From: Saksenaea vasiformis B4078
Lineage: Eukaryota > Mucoromycota > Mucoromycetes > Mucorales > Saksenaeaceae
Direction of reading: 5' to 3'
Length of the DNA stretch: 64,000 bases
Assembly: GCA_000697055.1 (NCBI GenBank)
Contig: JNDT01001546.1
Coordinates: 1-64,000 of the forward strand
The notes below the pieces were generated by a model, which saw only the letters and a program-made list of their open reading frames with translations, was not told the origin of the DNA and ran no database searches. Positions 20,938 through 64,000 of this stretch are shown here, piece after piece; within the stretch, counting starts at the first letter, position 1, and each line of letters opens with the position of its first letter. Made by a program: the position numbers and the translations under genes.

Positions 20938-21010
20938 CGAGGCTACCAGGGGTCGAACCTGGAATCTCCTGATTCGTAGTCAGGCGCCTTATCCATTTGG
21001 CCATAGCCCC
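20938..21010 (-). tRNA. tRNA-Arg (ACG)
   Basis: The minus strand reads a 73-nt cloverleaf. The acceptor stem GGGGCTA pairs with TAGCCTC through one G-U pair. The D arm is GGCCAAATGGATAAGGC-like. The anticodon stem CCTGA/TCAGG holds the loop CTACGAA with anticodon ACG at 20975-20977. The T arm CCAGG-TTCGACC-CCTGG is perfect. There is no intron. The internal B box GGTTCGACCCC is intact, so the gene should be transcribed by Pol III. The discriminator base is G, usual for tRNA-Arg. Confidence 0.95.
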
Positions 21011-21250
21011 TTTGATGTTTTTAGAATAGCCATAATCTTATAAGAGAGAAGAAAGAAAAGAATTTGTAATTTTTTTTAAAGAAATTTTTTTAAAGTAAAT
21101 AAGTTTAATGTTAATAAGAAAGTAATTATAATAAATAAAAAAAGTTAAAAAAATAAAAAATAAAATAAAATAAAAGTTAAAAAAAAGTAATTATAATATT
21201 AGTTATCTACTAAATTGAAATAGTAAAGTTTATAAAACTTAGTGAAGAAT
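21011..21250. other. A/T-rich tract upstream of the tRNA
   Basis: This stretch is almost purely A and T, with long runs such as AAATAAAAAAAGTTAAAAAAA. It lies directly 5' of the tRNA gene. It may be a nucleosome-poor region or a decayed element end. No gene is seen. Confidence 0.6.
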
Positions 21251-21844
21251 CAAAGATGATTTTAAGAAAAGAATATGAGACAAAAGAAGTCAGCGAGACT
21301 GAGATGAAGATTTTTATTATTCAAAGAGTCTTCTTTTATATGTTTCTAAAATATGATCAGGACATTGATAGTGAGACATCTTGTAAACCAGTAATGACGA
21401 GAGTAAAAGTTTTCATTCAACTGAGTCCAAAGATACCAATGGTGCAATCACAAAAGTGATCTACAATTGGTAGTAAAAATAGACAATGATGGCCCTGGAC
21501 AGTCGGTAACAAAAATCAGGAACTAGATTTAGATTACCGCAGGTCTGCAATGAAGAAGAAAAACTCGTGTGACAATAAAAATTTTACAAGTTCATCTGGT
21601 GATAACTGAAACATTATGAAAAGGATGTCAAAATATGACACTTAGTATTGAGTTAATAATATATAAGTAAAGAATTAGTATCTGAAAGTATAAATTGTCT
21701 GTAAAAAGATATGTCTAAAATAAATTAGTTAATAAGTCAATTAAATAGTGAGCATCAGATACAAGTATTTTAAGTTATGTATCAAGAACTGAGAACAAGT
21801 AAAGAATTAAGAGTGTAATATATGGAGTATTTACTATCATGTCT

Positions 21845-22305
21845 TCTGCACAAAATTACTATGCACAACTATATGCAGCTATATAGGAATTATCATATTT
21901 TAATTTTACTTTGACATGGAGATCGCATGTATGAATATGCAGTCATGGTAATCAGAGCAGAAGAACAATCATGTCTATCATCACTCTAAACAAACATGAC
22001 ATTTAATCTATCTTAATGAAAGCTCTTATTCAACATGCACTGGCAGATGTCTAGAAGTTTTGTAGATATGAGATTGTTTTCCAAATTAAAAGATGATGAA
22101 TAAATATACAACGTTTGAGCGGCTGTTGATGTTCAAAGAAATATGATCGATTGAAATGATCGCCACTGTACAATAGCATAAATGCTTCTAAAGGGGACGC
22201 ACTCATTTTATTTAGAAGGGATCGTTTGAAAGAGATGACGTGTGATGTGCAAACATGCAGCATTTACTAAACTTTTGAACGTTCTGATGAGACACGACCA
22301 TCCTC
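21845..22305 (+). repeat. LTR-like repeat copy 1 (segments A and B)
   Basis: Segment A (21845-22020) reappears at 26890-27085, sharing stretches such as ATTATCATATTT and ACATGACA. Segment B (22047-22305) reappears at 23424-23680 at roughly 90 percent identity by eye, and in part at 60074-60292. No protein is encoded. Together with segment C, seen in the other copies, this is interpreted as one LTR of about 590 bp. Confidence 0.6.
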
Positions 22306-23099
22306 CTAGAGGACTGTCGTATTCTACATACAGAATGACTAAATCATATCACGACATCTACAGATAAACCTCACAGATGAGAAACCAGATAAATAATGAT
22401 TAAGCTGAAGTACAAATCATATCAGGGTCCAATATCCGATTGTACCTGAAACCTCTTTAACATTGATCATTGGTTTATCATTGTAAAACTTTTATTTCTC
22501 AAGAATACCACTACTGCTATAAAAGCTCCCTGTAAAACAATAATAAACAATCATCTAAGAGTCTCAACGTTGTCATATCTGACATTGATCTTTTACTCAT
22601 AACACTATTTACGCAGCTCAATGTCATCACGACATATAAGAAAATACGACCATGTCAGTCTTACAATGACTTTACAAGATTATCCTAAGACATGTCCATA
22701 CTCAGAGTACCAATCAGAACATATTCATTCATGATCCAGTTACCAGGAAATTCGGAAACAATAAGATCCGCTCTTTCAATTCCGCTGTCCCTGATTCAAC
22801 TGAGACAGTCCCAATGGATTACATTCTGAATTACCGCACAGCTCTTCTTTAACCCGATCTCTAAAAACACTCCTTTAGATTGGTTAACGGACAATAGCGA
22901 TATCTAAGACATAAGCTAACAATCTACTCTGAAGTCAACAAGACATATAAATATCGTCAACTCAGATAGAAAAGTTTTTCAGAAGATTGATTCTTTTTTT
23001 CTTTTCTCGAGAATAAACACTAGTCTCGCTGAATCTATTGATCCCTTTTTATTCCACATCAACGAGACATTACAAACGTATTTCCGTTGTTATCTGTTA

Positions 23100-23290
23100 T
23101 GTTGGTTATCTACTAAGTCGAAACAGTGAAGTTCGTGAGACTCGGTGTACTGTTTTATTCTTGTGAAAAAGAACGAGGAACTGTTTTACTAAAAAATCCC
23201 TCTAGATAACCGAATTTAGCGGAGTGATGTGTGATACACTTATTGGGAACTGTTGTGTAGCATTGAGTTGTTTGGACACAACATTATCCA
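23100..23290 (+). repeat. Direct repeat D, copy 1
   Basis: The block ending TGTGTAGCATTGAGTTGTTT recurs at 24716-24858 with the same flanking order (GGAACTGTT..., GATAAC.GAATT.AGC.GAGTGAT). The first part (GTTATCTACTAA.T.GAAA.AGT) also occurs at 21197-21225. No coding function is seen. Confidence 0.6.
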
Positions 23291-23423
23291 TCTCTCAATT
23301 AACCAAATTTCACAAGGACCTCTGCCAAGGCTGCCTGATGGAATGTTTCATCATGTAGGATAGAAGCCTTTAAAAAAAAGGTGATCGTTGGTTAGCAATG
23401 ATGATATTACCTTGATCATTGGT

Positions 23424-23840
23424 GGATGTCCAGAAGTTTTGTAGATATGAGATTGTTTTCTGAATCAAAAGATGACAAATAAATATACAACATTTGAGCG
23501 GCCGCGATGTTCGAAGAAATATGATCGATTGAAATGATCGCTGCTGTACAATAGCATAAATGCTTCTAAAGAGGACGCACTCATTTTATTTAGAAGGGGT
23601 CGTTTGAAAGAGATGACGTGTGATGTGCGAACACGCAGCATTTACTAAACTTTCGAACGTTCCGATGAGACACGACCATCCTCCACTGCTGATCACTGTT
23701 ATTTTTATTATTGTAGAAGAGCCAGTAAAAAGATATATAAGGTGGGTCGATTAATATACAATAAAGAATATAACACAAGTCTCAAAGGATTTATCCGTCT
23801 GATTCTTTTTATTGATTTTCTTCTACAAACCTTTCAATTT
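23424..23840 (+). repeat. LTR-like repeat copy 2 (segments B and C)
   Basis: Segment B (23424-23680) is followed by segment C (about 23690-23840). C has a TATA-like AAGATATATAAG at 23731-23742 and ACAATAAAG at 23758-23766, followed by CAAGTCTCAAAGGATTTATC. The TATA and polyadenylation signals support LTR identity. Segment C also occurs at 27088-27245. Confidence 0.65.
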
Positions 23841-24430
23841 CTATATTACAAAGAGGATGAATGAGAAAAAACACGAGACAAGAGAAGTCAGCGAGACTTG
23901 GATGGCTTTTTTATTGAATAAAAAGTGTTCCTCTTTTTATAACAAAATCATCCATGGATACAGATAGATTGAGCTATATTCCATGATTACACAGATGCTC
24001 ATATATCCATGATATAGCCGGTATCTATATTGGATCTTTCTTAATGCAGTATTTACAGAGGACAGATCGAGAGCGGATCGTAGAAAACTCGGTGAAAGGC
24101 ATTGTATAAAGGAATCCGGGTTAAGTGCTAATATGGAAGCAATTGAAAGTCCACAATCTGTGTTCAAGGTAATTTCGGAGTAGAAATAGGATCTCTTTAT
24201 GGTAATGTATCAATCATTGGCTAGCAATGTATCTGACTGTGAATGGAGGATGTTGGAATACAACAGCAAGCAAGAAATAAAAAGAAGATAGGTCACATAG
24301 ATATCTTTTGTCAAAAATAAGATTGTTAGACTTAAGTCTCTGATATTTATCTGATTCATTCAGTATATTTATATGTTTTTTTATTTATTCTAGCTAAGTC
24401 AAAAATGGAAAAGTTATTCTATTGAAGAGC

Positions 24431-24583
24431 AGTCAAAAAGCATCAAATTGTAAAGATCAGGATAAGAATGTTGTGATATTGAGTCAAAAAGTATCTGGTT
24501 GTAAAGATCAGGACAAGAGTGTCATGATGTTGAGTCAAAAAGCATCAAGTTATAAAGATCAGGACAAGAATGTTACAATATTG
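24431..24583 (+). repeat. 51-bp tandem repeat, three units
   Basis: Three head-to-tail units of 51 bp begin AGTCAAAAAGCATCAAATTG-like. Each translates in the + frame of the ORF at 24422-24664 as a 17-residue unit, SQKASNCKDQDKNVVIL and variants. The units differ from each other at several positions. Whether the ORF is expressed is unknown. Confidence 0.75.
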
Positions 24584-24715
24584 AGAGATGAGGACAAAAG
24601 TGGTAGAAAGACAAGAGAACAGGACAGAGTTATCATTTTCCTCTTGTTGATATTTGGTTCTTGAATTCTTAGAGTCACCTGATGGCCTGCCGCCTTTGAC
24701 AAACTAAGGAGCAAC

Positions 24716-24858
24716 ATCAGTATACTGTTTATTCTTCTGAAAAAGTATGAGAAACTGTTTTAACTAAAATTTTCTCTAGATAACTGAATTCAGCAGAGTG
24801 ATATATGGTACACTTATTAGGAACTGTTGTGTAGCATTGAGTTGTTTGGACACAATAG
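24716..24858 (+). repeat. Direct repeat D, copy 2
   Basis: This is the partner of the block at 23100-23290, ending TGTGTAGCATTGAGTTGTTT and differing mainly by transitions. Confidence 0.6.
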
Positions 24859-25667
24859 TAAGAAAATAAAAAAGCTTATAAAAAAAGATAAGAAAAACAA
24901 AAGATAAGAAAAAAGAAGTCTAAAAAAAGTAAAGAGACAATTTTTGCATTGTTTTATTTTTGTTGTTCTTGTAAGCAATTGCAAGTGAGTTTGAATCTCA
25001 CATTAGTTTTATATATATTAGTTGTTTCTGTCTTTTTGACATAGCATTTAGATAATCTGTATAGTTCATTACAGCTGTGTGGCATTTGTACTAGTGCCAC
25101 TCTACCTGATCGAATGCTGAAAGTCTCTTTGAGATTACAACAAATGAGCATATCAACTAGCAATGAATTTTGTATTATGAATCTGTTACGGTGATTTAGA
25201 GTAATTCAGTACATTCTCAATAGCATTGATTAATAGTAGTAGCGCTCTATTGTATTTTACGACAAAAGTTTGCATGTCTCTCATATACTCGATTAAAGGA
25301 TTTAATATAGCAGACAAAGTACAACGATTGTTGAAAGTTTTTTTTAAGCATACTAAATAGTCAGTAACTATAGCTTCCTTAAGAAGATAAGAAAAAGGAT
25401 CCAATGAGTTGATTCTCATATTGCCACTTGCTGTGTTATTGCGTTAGTTGCGCATAGTATATGTCTACAGTGTTACGCTGTATTTTTCAGCTGCTGTATA
25501 TGGATAGTGTCGTTCCAAGTATTGTCGTAGCGTAAGCTAGATGTCGGTGATTGTTGGTAAAGGTATCGGTTGAATAATGTTCGTTAATAGAAAGGTTCGG
25601 AATTGAGTGAGCACCAGGTCTAGATTTAAGTCAAACACCAAGACTTGGTTAAGCGGTAAAGCTTGAA

Positions 25668-25979
25668 GAAAGAAAAAGAAAAGGTTGAATAGAGTAACTG
25701 TTGTCGGTATTGACAATATCCAAAGAGATCTGGATAAAATAGAATATGATCGTTAGTAAGATCGTTGATATGGTTACCTTGAATCGGCAAAGAGTTTCGT
25801 CAAAGAGTTTCGTCAAAGATAAAAAGAAAAAGAAAAGGTTGAATAGAGTAACTGTTGTCGGTATTGACAATATCCAAAGAGATCTGGATAAAATAGAATA
25901 TGATCGTTAGTAAGATCGTTGATATGGTTACCTTGAATCGGCAAAGAGTTTCGTCAAAGAGTTTCGTCAAAGATAAAAA
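25668..25979 (+). repeat. Perfect tandem duplication, period 154 bp
   Basis: The block containing GGTTGAATAGAGTAACTGTT at 25683 is repeated from 25837 with no difference that I can see, through the AAAGAGTTTCGTCAAAGAT end of each unit. Each unit also contains a short internal repeat (AAAGAGTTTCGTC twice). Identity this high points to a recent event or to an assembly artefact. No coding function is supported. Confidence 0.85.
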
Positions 25980-26889
25980 GAGAAATAAAAAGAAGACAGC
26001 AGAATTGTCGTCGTCGTTTGTCAGACAGAGTAAAATAAAAAGAAAAGAAAAGAAATCAAATGGATTCGGGTTAACGGTGGTTTCTTGAGAATAACCAACG
26101 GAGGCGAGTAATAAAAGGCGGTTTGAGAAATAAAAGAAAAACCTTCGGAAAAGAATTTTTGAGATGGCTCGGAATAGCCAATAGAAGAATATGCTTTTGT
26201 AACCTGATGTTTTATTCATTGAATTGAAAGGGTATTCATGCAAAATAGATCGGTAAAACAATAATTTCGCTAAGTGGATGAACATCTAGTCTATCATGGC
26301 TCAGATGGATAATGACGGCAGGTAATTGGTTCAATCGTATGCGCTTTGGATCGTATGCGGTTTCGATTGTGCGTGGTCTTGATCGCATGTGCCTTTAGAT
26401 AAGGTTTGGGGGTCGATTGGGGATGATACCAGAGGTCATGTGCCGTTGTCAGAGTGGATGTCCGTTTGTATGGGATTTCAAAAGCCTAATGATAGCAGCT
26501 AGAGGATTCCACTAAAAAGAATAAGAAAGAAAAGAAAAATAAAATTATGTCGACGTCATTGAGAAAAATAGGAATAGCAGGCGAGATTGCCTGAGAGTGA
26601 AAAATAGCACTCTACAGCGGATTAAGGCTACTGATACATTTTGCACGTTGATCTTTTTCTTCAAAATGATCCAAACGCGATGCGCATGGTCTGTCATGGC
26701 AAAGTAGAGTGCTACTTCAAAGACTTCGTTCCATTTTTCAAGCAGAAGATCTAGCCATCAGAAGTCGCATGCTGTACCAAAGTTAGGTCTTAGTTTTATT
26801 CCATTTTTAACGTTGGCATGAGTTCTCTGACAATAATGTATCATCCGGTTTTGATCAGTGTTTCTTTCTGTGGTATATCGAGTATCTGT

Positions 26890-54918: not shown

Positions 54919-56303
54919 ATGTCGCTTGCCCTTGACTTCTTGCTCCCCCCTCCCCCTGCTTCTTACAAGGTTGACCAGGCCTTTGTTGCTCATTCCTCCG
55001 TTAGCGGTAAATTCGGTCGCTTAAAGTTTAAAGGAACTAAACCCCATTACCCTTTTAGCCGCTCAGGATCGCTTGTTGGAGCCCGTCGGTCCTCATTTCC
55101 TTGCCCATGCTCGCCGCAAGAGACACAACCGCACTTTCTCCGAGGATGAACTCCATCAGGCCAAGGAGAAGGCTAGCCAAGTGGTTGAAGAGGAAACCGT
55201 CGACTTTGAGTATGAAGATGTCGATATCACCACTGTCAACAATGATCCTACTCAATGGAAGGTACATACCATTATGAGAACGATCACATTACTCACGCCC
55301 TGGTTAATAGAGCCAAGATAACTACGCCGTTTTGGGTTTGACGAAGCTCCGTTACAAGGCCACCGAGGATCAGATCAAGAAGGCACATCGTCGCATGGTC
55401 TTGCTTCATCACCCCGACAAGAAGGCCGATAAGAACGACGATGCCTTCTTCAAGTGTATTGCCAAGGCCTATGACACTTTGATGAATCCTGTCAGCCGTC
55501 GTCAGTACGACTCCGTCGACTTCGGTATGTCCGCCATTGACGAGGAAGTTCCTACTGCCAAGACGCCCGGCAACTTCTACAAGTTGTGGGCTCCTGTTTT
55601 CGAACGTGAATCCCGTTTCTCCACCAAGCAACCTGTGCCGCTTCTCGGAACAGAAGAATCCACCAAGGAAGAGGTTGAAGGTTTCTACGATTTCTGGTAC
55701 AACTTCGATTCGTGGAGATCTTTCGAGTGGCTCGACAAGGAGGCTGCTGAAGGAGCGGACAACCGTGACGATAAGCGTTACGCCGAGAAGAAGAACCGTG
55801 CTCAGCGTGCTCAGCTCAAGAAGGAAGATAACGCCCGTCTCCGTAAACTTGTCGATACTTGTTTGAGCGTGGATCCTCGTATTGCTAAGTTCAAGGCTGA
55901 AGAGAAGAAGCGCAGAAACGCAAAGAAGGACGCCAAGGCTGCCGCCGATAAGGCTGCTGCCGAGGAGGCTGCTCGCAAGGCTGAAGAGGAACGATTGGCT
56001 CGCGAAAAGGCTGAAGCTGAGGCTAAGGAAGCCCAAGCTGCCGCTAAGAAGGATAAGGAAGCTGTTAAGCGTGCCATCAAGAAGGAGAAGAAGACAATCA
56101 AGAACTTGATTAAGGACAACAACTACGCCTTGCCTGCTGGTGCTGCCGCTGCTACTCCCGAAGAAATCGACAGCCAATTGCAGAAGCTTGACGATGTGTT
56201 GGCCAAGAACAAGGGATTGCCAGAGCTGGAAGCACTTCGCAAGGCCCTTGAGCAAGGTCTTAAGGATGGCAAGCTCTCTGATGCCTTTGCCGCTGCACTT
56301 TAG
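54919..56303 (+). CDS. zuo1: Ribosome-associated J-protein zuotin
   Basis: Zuotin is part of the ribosome-associated complex that stimulates Hsp70 Ssb on nascent chains. Three exons, 54919-55006, 55059-55261 and 55311-56303, join to about 427 residues. The N terminus MSLALDFLLPPPP carries the PPxxP-type motif, followed by VGPHFLAHARRKRHNRTFSED. The J domain reads DNYAVLGLTKLRYKATEDQIKKAHRRMVLLHHPDKK with the HPD intact. The zuotin homology domain has FYDFWYNFDSWRSFEWLDKE. A charged Ala/Lys/Glu helix of about 100 residues follows, then a C-terminal helical bundle (IDSQLQKLDDVLAKNKG). There is no SANT domain, which agrees with fungal forms and differs from animal DNAJC2. GC-biased codons point to high expression. 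Confidence 0.96.
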
Positions 56304-57345: not shown

Positions 57346-57534
57346 GTTATAGGTTAGAAAGATGCTGTCTGCAGAAAAGAGCGGATGGAGACGCCCTGAC
57401 AACTTGAATTTGAGGGTAATAATTTACCCGTCAGCACGGTCCAACTTCCACGAGCTGACAAACATGCAAGCCCAAATCATCGGCAATCCCATTCACTCCT
57501 ACTGTTTATTGAACAAATTTTTAGGCTAATCTAC

Positions 57535-57800
57535 ATAAATTTTGCGTCCATGAGGAGCCACTTTTATGTTAAGAAAAGAATCAAGTATGCGTTCGTTAAT
57601 ACATAAGTTGGCAACAAATTCATACGCTACTTACATCAACGCGACCCCTCGATGGACGCGAAATTCATATAGACAGCATAACAATTTGTTCATGGTTAGT
57701 AAATGGAACAAATATTTGGATGTCAGTTTACTTACCCCGAAGGAATTCCTGCGCATTCGCAGGAGCCACACCCTGCACCATTTCGGTGGAGGTGGGAGAG
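57535..57800 (+). repeat. Short inverted-repeat element, best copy
   Basis: The left end CTACATAAATTTTGCGTCCATGAGG (57530 on) and the right half GATGGACGCGAAATTCATATAG (57651-57672) form an imperfect inverted repeat. Core blocks are TATGCGTTCGTTAATACATAA and CGCTACTTACATCAACGCG. An outer part (GGTTAGTAAATGGAAC, then CTTACCCCGAAGG) is shared with the copy at 48205-48440. It has no ORF and is MITE-like. Confidence 0.6.
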
Positions 57801-60073
57801 GAGGTGTATGGCTTCCATGGATCGGCCAGTGTCATGCTTTTACGACCAGAGGTCTAAACAATTGACCAAAAGACATCATTTTCCGTGTATATAGCCGATC
57901 TTTGTACGTACGGGGACGTTTCGTTGGGAAACGGAGCCAAAGAAGAAAAAAAAAAAAGAGAATCCATGCGTCCCTTTACATATGGTCACTTTAAGCGTTT
58001 CGATTGGGGAACCTATTACAATGGATCAGCGCAATACACCTTTGACTGAGAAGTAAAGATACCTGAGGCTCTGCCCAAAGACCTACTGCTCATAACCGCA
58101 AGATTTATTTGGTACCAACGCAAAGTAGTATTTAGATGACGCAAATGTGTATTCAAAATGCACTCCTAGTATTTCTTTCTAACTAATATATATATAACGC
58201 CGTGCGATCTATTGCGAGCTTCAAAATACGTTTCGACTGTCAACTTCATCATGTCGGCTGTACATTCATGATACAAAGATGATAGAATGCGGTAAATCCT
58301 CTTGGCTTTATTTACGGTGTCGTTTGTTCATGTTGCACACGTATTTAACAACCAATTGTTGTCCTTTACATAGAACCTGTCAGACATCGTATCACATTTG
58401 GGTTCCCTTATCGAGAATATAGACGCGAACGACTGCCCCGAATCTTTCGAGTAGTAATAATGGACATTATGGAAAACTGAACAGAAGTTTTCGCCCAATG
58501 ACGTCGGTGCAATATAGCGAAATTTGTGAAAACAGCATCCAGCGTTGCAGGACATGCGGGACTATTTCATAATTCTGTGGGGGAGGCTGGTGTTGACAAC
58601 GGAACTGGGAGTGGCGATCGCTTAGGAATTTATTCCTATGTCGCCGTTTTTGTCGCTCACAGGTAGGATACTCGTTTTCGATGACGAAAAGCCTGAGAGT
58701 TACTACTCAATTACCAGATGGATTCAAGAGAAAACTGACCCCTGTGTCCTATTTATGCGAGTCAATAAGGATAGCAACACGTTGACTGGTTCTCGCGTGG
58801 TCTACCCCAGGAGACGCTATTGTTCTTTTAGTAGCTAAACGTGCGCCAGTCGAGAACTCTGTATTCAGGTGAAACCAAAGCCTACTTCATAGCTACGTAT
58901 AACTAGCTCAGAGCGAAAATGCGTTAAGATGTATCCAATCTGCACAGTGCAACGAAAATAGAACCTTGTCGTCAGGGAGCTTGTGGTAAGTTAGTGGTGA
59001 GCGATGTATTACCCAGGATATGTTAGCATAACGGACAAAAGTTGATATCTAGTAACGAAGCTGATTGGTCAAAGTTACCAAGTTCGTATACGTTCAACAG
59101 CCGTATTAATTCAGTCCTGTTGACAAAATTTTGCCATGTACCTAAAGCTGAAACATTGTGATAGCTTGTCGGGACGTAATGTTTGCAACTAGATAAGGGA
59201 AAAGCAAACTATTATATTCACCCGACCAAATTTAGGCGTAACAAACGACGTAATAATTGCTTTACGAACTACAATACGAGCAGAACCTATAATAGCGTTG
59301 ATCAACGTTTTTCGTAGTGATACTAGCAAAAGTCGGCTTCTAGATTGCAGCAAACATCCTCCGAAGATGTAGACTCACCTATGGTAGTGTAAAACTGCTC
59401 TTCAGGTGCTGTCAGGCTGATAACTAAAGAACTTGTTGATCGTGTGAACAAATAAACGCAATCTCAGCTGATGCAGAATATTTGGAGCGCAAAGAAAAAG
59501 TCAGTCCTAAGTAAAAATGGGAATATCCTGTGGAGTTCCTTGTCCTCGCCGTAAACTCTGAGTTCTTCAGAAACACATAACAATTATAAGCGTTGCATTG
59601 TCAACACAAAAGTTGGCATCCGTCGTGATAGCAGCATAAGCAGTGCCTCCCTATGTGCATACTGTTTGTCCAAGCCCTGTAGCTACGTTGATATAGCCGA
59701 ACAAAGGGCTATGCAGATAAAGTTATTACATTCGCGTTTTGTATCAAATTTTCTGGATCGCGATGACGCTTTACAGGCTTACTTATCCCTCCTGGACGAT
59801 TGTATTCCTTTCCGCTTGCTGCGAGAATATGGGTCACCTTAGTCTCTGCCATCTATCTTATGATGTATATAATATGAACAGGACAGAATATATTACTGCA
59901 GAACTAAAATAATAATCTGGTCAAGCTGGAAAGCAAGTTCAGAGGTGTCCCTGTCCAGTCTGTTCAAAGGAGTGACAACAGGTATTCCGACGGGTGTGTT
60001 AATTCATAACACCAATCAGCGCAGAGAACCTTAGGGAAACATTGCTGAGACGCTTCGCCCCGGTCATGTGGAC
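57801..60073. other. Long spacer without a supported gene
   Basis: Small ORFs have no motif. The stretch reads as decayed, with no long frame on either strand from about 58.9 to 60.1 kb. No bacterial-type sequence is visible in this part. Confidence 0.5.
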
Positions 60074-60292
60074 TATGGCGGATGTCCAGAAATTCCGATT
60101 CGAACAACTCCAAATGCGCTAAAAAAAATACGGTTAATTGAAATGATTGCTGTCATACAATAATACAAATGTTTCTAAAGAAAATACGCTCATTTTATCT
60201 AGAAAAGTCTTTTGAAAGAGATGATATGTGACGCGCAAACATACCGCGTTAATCAACTTTTGGATGTTCAGAAAGACACAACCATCTTGGTT
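60074..60292 (+). repeat. Segment B of the LTR-like family, partial copy
   Basis: Starting at GGATGTCCAGAAATTC, this matches 22047-22305 and 23424-23680 (AATTGAAATGATTGCT, AAATGTTTCTAAAG, CTCATTTTATCTAGAA, TTTGAAAGAGATGA, ACAACCATCTTGG). It is more diverged than the other two copies. Its right end coincides with the left edge of the bacterial-type sequence. Confidence 0.65.
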
Positions 60293-60532
60293 CTTCCAGC
60301 CGTGCAGCACCTCGTTGATTGCTCGAGGGTCCATGGTCGCGCCAGAAAGAATGTGCGCACTGGTTTCCGAGCCTTTTTCGAGCACACATACGGATATTGG
60401 TGCCCCTTTCTCATACGCCAGTTGCTCCAGGCGTATTGCTGTGGACAATCAAGCGGGACAACCACCGACAATAACCACGTCGTAGTCTACAGATCCACGA
60501 CTATATTGATCGATCAGGCTTTGCGGAGTCAT
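60293..60532 (-). pseudogene. Bacterial ETF-ubiquinone oxidoreductase, N-terminal fragment
   Basis: From the ATG at 60532 the minus strand reads MTPQSLIDQY, then VDYDVVIVGGCPA, a stop (TGA) at 60449-60451, and in the same frame LSTAIRLEQLAYEKGAPISVCVLEKGSE followed by AHILSGATMDPRAINEVLHGWK. This is the N terminus of the bacterial flavoprotein that passes electrons from ETF to quinone. The FAD-binding glycine box GGGPAG has become GGCPA-stop. The homology ends at about 60293, where the host repeat starts, so only about 80 of the usual 550 residues remain. The identity is clear from the VIVGG box and the GAHILSGAxMDPRAL-like block. Confidence 0.85.
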
Positions 60533-60676
60533 GGATATTCTCTCCATTAGCATGCGTTTGGCCCGGAGGCGCCATTGTCCGGGAAGTGCCCAGAATGCCG
60601 CAACCAAATGGCTCGGAACGAATAAGAACAGTCTATCCAAATGTGCTTCGGTCCCGCTATTTCTCTCTTGATCCCA
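60533..60676. promoter_or_regulatory. Bacterial-type spacer between divergent genes
   Basis: About 144 bp separate the two bacterial starts. The sequence is GC-richer than the host spacers and was probably the shared promoter region in the donor. No sigma-factor boxes are certain. Confidence 0.35.
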
Positions 60677-61848
60677 ATGACATCCTTCGATAATGCAATG
60701 GTGTTCGTGCATGAGCGTGCTGAAAATGTAAAGCTAGGATCTGGCGAGACGCTGACAGAGCACGTATTGGGTACCGCACGTACTATTGAGTCCCTGAACG
60801 TTGGTACCCCATCGTTGCTGGCTGCCTCACTTTTCCTGGTGATCCCTTACCTGGAGGTTCCTGGGCGCATGCTGCACGAACGCTTTGGCAGTGACGTGTT
60901 GCAATCAATCACGGATGTACGCAGACTATTGTGCCTGGGTGGAGCGCCGATAACCTATACGAGCCGGGATACCCAAGCGGAACGGTGCACGCAGGCCGAA
61001 GCACTGAAAAAGATACTGCTGGCTTTTGCCGAGGATATTCACGTTGTCTTGATCCGGCTGGCGTCCCGACTACAGACGCTGCGTTATTATGCAACGCATC
61101 AGCTGATGCCGCCACCGGAGTTGCCGCGCGAGACACTGGAAATTTATGCACCGCTGGCTAACCGGCTGGGAATTTGGCAACTCAAATGGGAATTGGAAGA
61201 TCTCGCGTTTCGTTTTGCCGATCCGTGTACTTATAAGCAGATCGCAAGGTCACTAGGTGAACGACGAGTCGAGCGTGAATCCTTCGTTCGTGATGCGATC
61301 GCGAGATTGACGCACGAGCTGGCGACAGCCCAGATTCATGCGACAGTCAGTGGGCGTCCCAAACACCTCTATAGTATTTGGCGCAAAATGCAGCGCAAGA
61401 GGCTTGAGTCTTCGGAGCTCAACGACGTGCGTGCGTTTCGCGTGATCGTGCCCCATATCAAGGATTGCTACGCCGTGCTGGGGATTGTGCACAACATGTG
61501 GCAGCCAGTCCTGCGAGAATTCGATGACTACATTTCACATCCAAAGCCCAATGGTTACAGGTCGCTTCATACAGTCGTCATTGGCGATGATGGCCGCACA
61601 TTGGAAGTGCAAATTCGCACACAGAAGATGCATTACTTCGCCGAATATGGAACTGCGGCGCACTGGCGTTATAAGGAAGCAGGCGATCACGGGTATGCGG
61701 GACAGACACAAGCCAATGGCACATACGCTGCAAAAATCGCCTGGCTTCGGCAATCGCCTCGCGTGCAAGGATGGCGTTGCGGTTCATGACCAAGATATTC
61801 AGCCTCGGGAACAATTGTGTCGAGCGCCGTCAGTCGACCACATCTATA
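60677..61848 (+). pseudogene. relA: Bacterial relA ((p)ppGpp synthetase), 5' two-thirds, broken
   Basis: The ATG at 60677 (MTSFDNAMVF) opens an intron-free frame. The N-terminal HD domain lacks a clear HD pair, as in synthetase-only RelA. Then come RLASRLQTLRYYA, LEIYAPLANRLGIWQLKWELEDLAFRF, the synthetase domain with SGRPKHLYSIWRKMQRK, ELNDVRAFRVIVPHIKDCYAVLG, FDDYISHPKPNGYRSLHTVVIG, EVQIRTQKMHYFAEYGTAAHWRYKE and KIAWLRQ. A +1 shift at about 61754-61766 is followed in another frame by ACKDGVAVHDQDIQPREQL and DHIY, where homology stops at 61848. The TGS and ACT domains are absent. Wording and order match Burkholderiales RelA closely. It lies in fungal flanks and is clearly non-functional. Confidence 0.93.
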
Positions 61849-62589
61849 GGTCGTGCTAGGAAAACCTTCGATCGAAAAAACAGTATCATGTCAGTATCTA
61901 TTAAAATATCATATATAAAATGAGATAAATCATACCATCAATTGTAATCCCACGAACTGTCGGTTTTTCGATACCGTACTCCACCACCAGCTGATCCGAC
62001 ATCTTGTGTAACTCCCTCCGAAGTTTTGCTTATTGCCTTGTCCCTTTCGGCTTTGAGAGGGTTTGATTTCTGTAATAGCGCGGCCTATAGCCAACGTCGC
62101 TATTAACTTACGAAGACCGGATTCGTAGGTACAATGGTGTGGGCGAGGAAGCGAGCTTTCAGGAAGTTGGTTAAGAATTTTAGATACCGTTTTCTTAATG
62201 ATAAAAACGTAGGGATCCTGGATGGATTTAGGATCCCGTCCTTTTATATGAACGCATCTGTATGCGGAGAGCAAATATATACAAATGGTATCGAATACAA
62301 TATCGTCGCTAACTATGAGCCAATCCGCATACAAGGTCATGAAGACCTATCTGTAGCACCGCTACAATTTCTATGGTCAACAAGTCTAATAGAATTTTTC
62401 GGATTAATGTTTAGCGGGTGAAGCTGGTAGGAATCTTTGCGATGATTTTTGTTTTGTTATGGAAGGAGTATCTGTTTCCGACGCCAAGGATGCTGCTGCT
62501 GCTGCTCAATCAGAGCTTGGAATCCACGATAATGGTGCGGCGAATGCAGTCGATTACAAGACTAGACCAATGAAAGGATTTGCCTTCGG
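61849..62589. other. Host spacer right of the bacterial segment
   Basis: AT-rich host-like sequence resumes at about 61850. A minus-strand ORF at 61930-62340 (with YESGLRKLIATLAIGRAITEIKPSQ) could be a fragment of a multicopy fungal gene, but I cannot name it. The plus ORF at 62459-62662 (starting MEGVSVSDAKDAAAAA) runs into repeat X and is not called. Confidence 0.4.
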
Positions 62590-63525
62590 ACAGCCAAAAG
62601 CCGTCCATCATCAGCCTTCTTTTGACCGCGTGACTACGGTGGCCTATGGTGCACTGTTTTGAAGTCAGCTAATAGTACAAAAAGCTTGAAAAACGTACCC
62701 TTAACCGGTGACGCATGGTATTAAAAATGGTATCCAGTATTAAAAATGGTATCCAGTATAGAATTGACTGGGATGACCTTTCCGATATATGAATGACTTG
62801 CGAAGTATGAATGATTAATAACGAACCTAACAGAATGATTAGAAAATTAGTGAGAATATAGGAATTCGCTTACCTTAAGTATCAAACCGTATTATCTACG
62901 GCGATACGTACACTTTCGTGCACATGGACTACAGGAAGGCAGGCAACAAGCCAATATGTGGCCTTTTCAGAATCCAAGCCGATTTCAGCCAATCAAAATC
63001 AGAGACGATTTTGTCAACTGAGTTTAGCTTTCTGAAGCCTTTCATTGCCATCCTGCAGTCCGGATCCATATCTAAAAAAATACTATGAAATAGCTTGTTG
63101 TATAATGATAAATAAAAAAGTACTTATCAGAAAATGTTGTCCCTGATCTCTCCACAACATATGTAGCTGCAAAGAAAAGTGTGAAAAACATGTCTTGATT
63201 TGCCTTTGTATGATCTTTTCATAGCTCCGTTCGTGCACAAGTGTTATACGACTATGAAAGATGTTATCAGAAGATTATGTATGTGATAAATGCTTATCTT
63301 TGTGAAGTGGATGTTTACGGCAAGAGTAAGACATCCACTTTTTGCCATGCTTGTGCATCTGTGGATGATATACAATACTTTATTCGTACGGTTCTTACAA
63401 AGATGATACTTACCTCTGGAGAAATATTTGGGAGAGAAGAAAGAAGACAAGAAAGTTTTCCATCATTTTGTTGTCCCCAAAAAAAAAATAATTGTTGGGA
63501 CTGGTACCATAGAACAGTAACATAG
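62590..63525 (-). repeat. Dispersed repeat X, copy 2 (inverted to copy 1)
   Basis: Read on the minus strand this follows 30890-31610: CCATCCTGCAGTCCGGA (63049), GATTTTGTCAACTGAG (63010), ACCCTTAACCGGTGACGCATGGTA (62697) and GCCGTCCATCATCAGCCTTCTTTT (62600). Compared with copy 1 it has an extra stretch near 62640-62690 and a doubled TTAAAAATGGTATCCAGTA (62722 and 62741). The plus-strand ORF at 63241-63525 (CHACASVDDIQYF) has a parallel in copy 1, so the element may once have coded. Confidence 0.7.
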
Positions 63526-64000
63526 TACGCTGAGAGTATCTGCTAAAGAATTCCATTATCACTGATCGACCAAATAGTGTATACATTTAATTTGATGCGT
63601 GTACGGTATGCTAGGGAACTCATTTAAAAAGCGATGATGCATCCCGCAGCTTACCTATGTCCGCTAATTGGCTGTCCGAGAATAGCACGTGGATTGGTTG
63701 TCCAAGATGACTATGGATGGCTATCCAAATGGCTGTCCGAAGGAAAGCCCCCAATGAAAAGCATTCTTTATAAAAGGCGCGGCTACCTAGTGGACAGAGA
63801 TGTCCTCATCATAAGATCGTCTTTTGTGCTTGTCTTTGAGCTTGTTTTGAAAAGTGTGAACTCCCGTGTGAGATCTGTGAGAATGCTCGCAGCTTTAATA
63901 GTGATATTCTTGTCCGTAACTGCAAGCGATGCATCGAGGACCATCTGGCCCAGGACAGCCATCACATTGCCTTCATCATTTTCGTGTCTGCTGTGCTGTA
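63526..64000. other. Spacer with repeated TGGCTGTCC words and a TATA-like box
   Basis: Three related words, TTGGCTGTCCGA, TGGCTATCC and TGGCTGTCCGA, occur between 63668 and 63741. TTCTTTATAAAAGGCGCGG at 63765-63783 looks like a TATA box. This could be an LTR U3 end cut by the window edge. No gene is called. Confidence 0.4.

Follow-up and report, generated by a model that had tools for sequence, protein, structure and literature searches.

Genomic fossils of endosymbionts are a known kind of locus in animals, where Wolbachia has left them in the genomes of a lungworm (PMC4046930) and of filarial nematodes (PMC12693587). Among fungi, Mortierellomycota are reported to keep xenologs from Mycoavidus, e.g., NOD-like receptors (PMC11291939). 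Mycetohabitans symbionts have been reported in two isolates of Apophysomyces (PMC13367373; PMC11261895), and another endobacterium in Saksenaea, which belongs to the same family as Apophysomyces (PMC10666400). Our search of the literature, which included few subscription papers, retrieved no published case of an Apophysomyces chromosome that carries symbiont DNA. Here, we describe a locus that is very probably an old and decayed nuclear insert of DNA from a Mycetohabitans-lineage endosymbiont, to which we assign no role and which would record a past symbiosis.

The window, i.e., the whole stretch of 64,000 nucleotides that we analysed, corresponds to bases 1-64000 of a contig of 138,019 bp, in an assembly of 38.68 Mb and 666 contigs. 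The nearest gene leftward of the insert encodes zuotin, with an exon 91% identical to EC973_004151 of Apophysomyces ossiformis and 90% identical to the sequence of Apophysomyces sp. BC1034. MCTS1, beyond the right end of the window, is 93% identical to its counterpart in BC1034 (A. ossiformis was absent among the 120 matches listed of 233). Since zuotin and MCTS1 are Apophysomyces genes, the sequence supports the location of the insert in an Apophysomyces (Mucorales) chromosome, with host genes on either side. This agrees with the fungal location proposed by an earlier, sequence-only reading of the window. The two genes are probably neighbours in BC1034 too, since both are listed with a longest contig of 43,247 bp. 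The GC content of the host sequence is 0.422 over positions 1-57400 of the window, and values of 41.7-41.9% have been reported for three Apophysomyces genomes (PMC5604411). The bacterial segment is richer, as had been noticed before, with values of 0.48-0.58 in 200-bp steps from 60300 to 61800. Two other features of the contig stand apart from the insert: an AT-rich stretch at 21001-26000 (GC 0.27-0.36), unlike the remainder of the window, and three or four near-tandem repeats of ~120 bp seen by eye directly upstream of MCTS1 (L143, 6500-6900).

Three bacterial gene remnants lie between the host genes: aroC(+), etfQO(-), and relA(+) (Table 1). The last two, a relA-like frame and a divergent N-terminus of etfQO, had been recognised from the letters alone, and were recovered by domain search and tblastn. 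The relA-like frame (60626-61786, plus strand) matched the profiles RelA_SpoT (PF04607, E 2.7e-43) and HD_4 (PF13328, E 1.1e-34), both above the cut-offs. It is open to ~61756, over ~371 codons when counted from where the bacterial start lies, and there is a frameshift near 61755. Past the frameshift, similarity to relA was followed by eye in a second frame up to ~61848. No reliable similarity to relA was found beyond this point by tblastn or by alignment against shuffles, and the right edge previously placed there therefore holds. The RelA of Mycetohabitans rhizoxinica (737 aa) matched the assembly over residues 10-374 only. Hence, of the parts of a long RelA, the remnant has the HD and synthetase domains and lacks the C-terminal regulatory half (TGS and ACT).

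The left edge had to be moved. It had been set at 60293, with host sequence on both flanks, but the left flank holds an aroC fragment that had been missed: bacterial DNA begins by ~59939, and a host repeat, which ends at 60286, interrupts it. The fragment at 59951-60076 encodes 42 residues of chorismate synthase on the plus strand (tblastn, E 9e-12), and its similarity reaches left to about 59939 when translated. The corresponding DNA alignment scored 121, versus a best score of 84 in 50 shuffles. This piece was missed by the DNA search with 9 kb of M. rhizoxinica and was found by protein search only. As for further decayed bacterial DNA, the region left of aroC reached, in a loose alignment, a score of 207 versus a best of 197 in 30 shuffles, from which we claim nothing, and the score of a loose alignment right of 61850 fell within those of the shuffles.

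Table 1. Features of the insert and of its surroundings, in positions of the window.
Feature	Positions	Strand	Evidence
Zuotin (DnaJ) exon, host gene left of the insert	55311..56300	+	Protein identity to Apophysomyces
Host dispersed repeat, family A	57500..58163	+	40 scored of 898 first-look candidates, all match
aroC (chorismate synthase) fragment, one in-frame stop	~59939-60075	+	tblastn and translation
Host dispersed repeat, family B, between aroC and etfQO	60077..60286		At least 39 other copies
etfQO (ETF-ubiquinone oxidoreductase), ~83 codons from the 5' end, frameshifted once near 60448	60287..60532	-	tblastn, best E 9.9e-28
Bacterial intergenic DNA, then putative deletion junction with the relA start region	60533..60640		Conservation upstream of etfQO to ~60612
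relA 5' part (HD and synthetase domains)	60641..61848	+	Domain and similarity searches
Host dispersed repeat, family C, right of the insert	62572..63761		40 scored of 144 first-look candidates, all match

In M. rhizoxinica the genes are arranged as aroC(+), etfQO(-), several further genes, and relA(+). The order and strands of the remnants agree with this arrangement and with that of free-living Burkholderiaceae, and for this reason we think that one chromosomal piece probably entered. The vehicle would have been DNA and not mRNA, as previously suggested, because the intergenic DNA upstream of etfQO is conserved and the three genes keep the order and strand of the donor. The distances are another matter. 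The starts of etfQO and relA are only ~0.1 kb apart in the window, versus 4,968 bp in M. rhizoxinica (where the relA start was set by hand). We examined 23 loci for this spacing; etfQO was unrecognised in eight of them, and in the 15 loci where our script recognised both genes they were always divergent and ~5 kb or more apart, although for four loci, of Pandoraea and Ralstonia, the distance is only approximate, the script having placed the start of relA late. The earlier expectation that the two genes are divergent neighbours in relatives is thus correct for their orientation and incorrect for their adjacency, and the 144-bp spacing taken as a normal bacterial arrangement reads instead as a deletion scar. 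The presumed deletion junction falls between ~60612, to which the DNA upstream of etfQO is conserved, and 60641, where relA sets in close to its start. Relative to the donor arrangement, ~4.9 kb are missing between etfQO and relA, and ~2.3 kb between aroC and etfQO (about 1001 to 3261 of L142). The missing DNA was not found elsewhere in the assembly, where the 9 kb of M. rhizoxinica matched this locus only, in two pieces (one candidate scored).

The gap between aroC and etfQO is occupied by the family B repeat. Thirty-nine further copies align with its stretch at 60122-60286, and 27 of them stop at exactly the same base, 60286 (40 of 249 candidates scored, all match). Its left end, set by eye at ~60077 against copies such as L096 (18 other copies aligned), adjoins the last aroC codon. 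No target-site repeat was seen by eye at this copy. Two more copies of family B are found in the window, at 22135-22302 and 23514-23680. A second, partly matching copy of family A lies outside the window, at 64715-65389 of the contig. Family C is ~1.2 kb long, and its best other copy is 94% identical; an inverted relative at 31608-30948 is 75% identical. We rejected a transposon carrying the insert as cargo between the repeats at 57.5 and 64.7 kb, since both are copies of a widely dispersed family.

The remnants accumulated an in-frame stop in aroC, a frameshift in etfQO, and a frameshift in relA, in line with the disabled frames and old decay described in the sequence-only reading. Among the nucleotides that are invariant in the bacteria compared, those changed at codon positions 1, 2, and 3 were 26/253, 36/301, and 46/90 in relA, and 18/102, 12/113, and 22/33 in etfQO and aroC together. 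Such an excess of third-position changes suggests that, before the transfer, a living bacterial lineage had already accumulated much of the divergence. The decay since then is roughly gauged by the 11-14% of change at first and second positions. We saw no CpG-specific decay: conserved CpG were lost in 40 of 82 cases and GpC in 43 of 90. A codon model that gave the window branch a dN/dS of its own was set aside, as a shift in composition had saturated the branch lengths (~3 and 7 neutral changes per site); its ratio was low alike in relA (0.048) and in the dead etfQO and aroC (0.023). The locus thus resembles an endosymbiont nuclear insert in two respects. It consists of symbiont-lineage DNA that lies between host genes in a contig of the host. 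It is also decayed, with one stop, two frameshifts, and a host repeat inside, in an assembly with no bacterial 16S (five of 318 first-look candidates scored; the control was positive in 9 of 14 genomes) and a single relA, as no second or intact one was found. The best reading is that the insert is mostly neutral.

A. ossiformis encodes a RelA-like protein (EC973_006033, here P0026, 428 aa) with HD and synthetase domains, which is 55% identical to the relA of the window and ends a few residues before the position of the frameshift in the latter. One transfer might have predated the split from A. ossiformis, with both RelA-like sequences descending from it. This is possible, but we find it doubtful. 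Both sequences keep HD plus synthetase and stop at nearly the same position, and among the 13 columns in which both are novel they have five residues in common that none of 59 bacterial RelA rows shows. However, a novel overlap of 13 columns is near chance, and in our reading the shared changes may be recurrent, common mutations. Furthermore, the 32-row tree does not join the two sequences, but places P0026, on a long branch (1.82), beside Mycetohabitans without good support (54/88). P0026 shares five of the 18 residues that are private to the RelA of four Mycetohabitans. The genomic context also argues against a shared transfer: EC973_006033 is listed on a contig of 194,489 bp and the zuotin of A. 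ossiformis on another of 41,831 bp, so the gene is probably at a different place from the insert of the window, unless a contig break intervenes.

The relA part might also be alive. A truncated HD-synthetase protein would then be expressed and kept by selection, as a domesticated alarmone enzyme, next to decayed neighbours. The ~371 open codons from the bacterial start position are mildly unexpected under neutrality. In a simple simulation, for which we chose the mutation settings, the probability of no stop in 359 codons was 0.33, 0.18, and 0.081 at 0.03, 0.05, and 0.075 substitutions per site, and 0.038, 0.008, and 0.001 at 0.1, 0.15, and 0.2. The stop and both frameshifts fall outside the open relA frame. 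Residues invariant in bacteria changed less often in relA (20/192) than in etfQO (11/51, Fisher P 0.056) or in etfQO and aroC together (26/91, P 0.0002), although aroC (15/40) has a narrower comparison set. The annotated gene of A. ossiformis, with the same two domains and an end near the same point, fits this scenario, and the residues that we take to be catalytic in the synthetase domain look unchanged in the window. Yet, changes at bacteria-invariant first and second positions were much alike in relA (62/554) and its dead neighbours (30/215), and single bacteria changed 0-3.5% of the residues invariant in bacteria, which puts relA far outside the bacterial range. The open frame itself prompted attention to relA, and it ends before the regulatory half. 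These comparisons point both ways, and we consider it improbable that Apophysomyces uses a truncated, symbiont-derived RelA without regulatory half, kept in at least two species while the neighbouring genes rotted, and we give equally little weight to selection on the remnant itself. In other fungi, RSH proteins are reported to be divergent forms with the synthetase only, and Cryptococcus to have Mesh1 (PMC3153485). A RelA-like protein in a eukaryote protein set (eukprot), P0078, has an extra transketolase-type domain and is 53% identical to the relA of the window; it is perhaps a contamination.

The proteins had been described as of Burkholderiales type. The sequence comparisons support a Burkholderiaceae origin of the insert and, for relA, point more narrowly to Mycetohabitans. 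We searched an even sample of 398 Burkholderiaceae genomes from a larger group, and 388 of the 398 had a relA match. The nearest were M. rhizoxinica HKI 454 and three near relatives (by tree), with 70-72% identity, and the next listed had 64-68%. We relied on this search for the donor instead of a protein search that admitted only 0.55-1.75 times the query length and left most full-length RelA outside. In the 32-row tree the relA of the window joins four Mycetohabitans at 91/93, which is below the starred level of the tool, on a long branch (1.04). Identity in the codon set was higher with M. rhizoxinica than with a Burkholderia for relA (72.1 versus 67.4%), and aroC gave 65.1% versus 62.8%. 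The donor was most likely a Mycetohabitans-like endosymbiont. Against this assignment, over 80 codons of etfQO the Burkholderia is nearer (72.5%) than M. rhizoxinica (63.7%), and of the 18 residues found only in the RelA of the four Mycetohabitans the window shares just four. The third-position GC of relA is 0.57 in the window versus 0.77 in M. rhizoxinica. Two symbiont MAGs from Apophysomyces, of M. apophysomyceticola (datasets SRR7686240 and SRR7686242), have a reported genome GC of 63.2 and 62.7% (PMC13367373); with the low third-position GC of the insert, the donor is not evidently one of these two symbionts. Another bacterium of the Burkholderiaceae, not an endosymbiont, would account for the affinity of etfQO and for P0026 of A. 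ossiformis being equally near Paraburkholderia (62%) and Mycetohabitans (61%), but the longest piece, relA, is nearest Mycetohabitans by both identity and tree, and we regard such a donor as unlikely. Finally, an assembly chimera or contamination, with bacterial sequence misjoined into a fungal contig, had to be checked, since symbiont sequence is common enough in Mucoromycota assemblies (Mollicutes-related endobacteria were reported in 19 of 389, PMC11423566) and relatives of the host carry Mycetohabitans, but it is very unlikely given the disabled frames, the 28% of residues that differ from the nearest sampled RelA, the dispersed host repeat inside the insert, the lack of bacterial 16S among five scored of 318 first-look candidates, the single relA, and the lack of any further match to the 9 kb of M. 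rhizoxinica (one candidate scored).

We thus favour the following history for a decayed endosymbiont insert. A Mycetohabitans-lineage endosymbiont would have supplied a single chromosomal piece, which reached at least from aroC to relA. This piece would have entered an intergenic, repeat-rich part of a chromosome of Apophysomyces, and end-joining during repair of a double-strand break is the most likely mechanism. The host repeat between aroC and etfQO may have landed there with loss of the neighbouring DNA; alternatively, two copies of the repeat may have recombined and removed the DNA between them. The ~4.9 kb between etfQO and relA could have gone missing before the transfer, in a donor with a reduced genome, or afterwards in the fungus. 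The genes would have been disabled by base changes, one stop, and two frameshifts.

If this is correct, a Mycetohabitans-lineage partner once lived in this lineage of Apophysomyces, and may or may not live there now. With fossils of this sort one can place and date partnerships of fungi and bacteria that are no longer visible in living cultures, and they bear on the question of early versus late invasion of Mucoromycota by endobacteria. Symbiont DNA would also be able to reach the nuclei of Mucorales as multi-gene pieces, a raw route of gene gain. Some caution follows for screens of Mycetohabitans reads in clinical moulds, which may match nuclear fossils.

The remnant shares the order and strands of the aroC-etfQO-relA region of M. 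rhizoxinica, but that region is intact, with ~5 kb between etfQO and relA, whereas the remnant is broken. EC973_006033 resembles the relA of the window in being a RelA-like sequence with HD and synthetase domains from a congener; it differs in its level of identity, in being annotated as a gene, and probably in its place. As described in the reports cited above, the Wolbachia fossils are likewise decayed symbiont DNA in a host chromosome that marks a past association, but their hosts are animals and the insert of the lungworm is nearly 1 Mb, whereas here the host is a fungus, the donor one of the Burkholderiaceae, and the insert one small piece. The Mycoavidus xenologs, as far as they are described there, are likewise gene flow from a Burkholderia-related endobacterium to a Mucoromycota-type host. 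They are, however, called genes, whereas in the locus described here at least aroC and etfQO are broken, and intergenic DNA was carried along.
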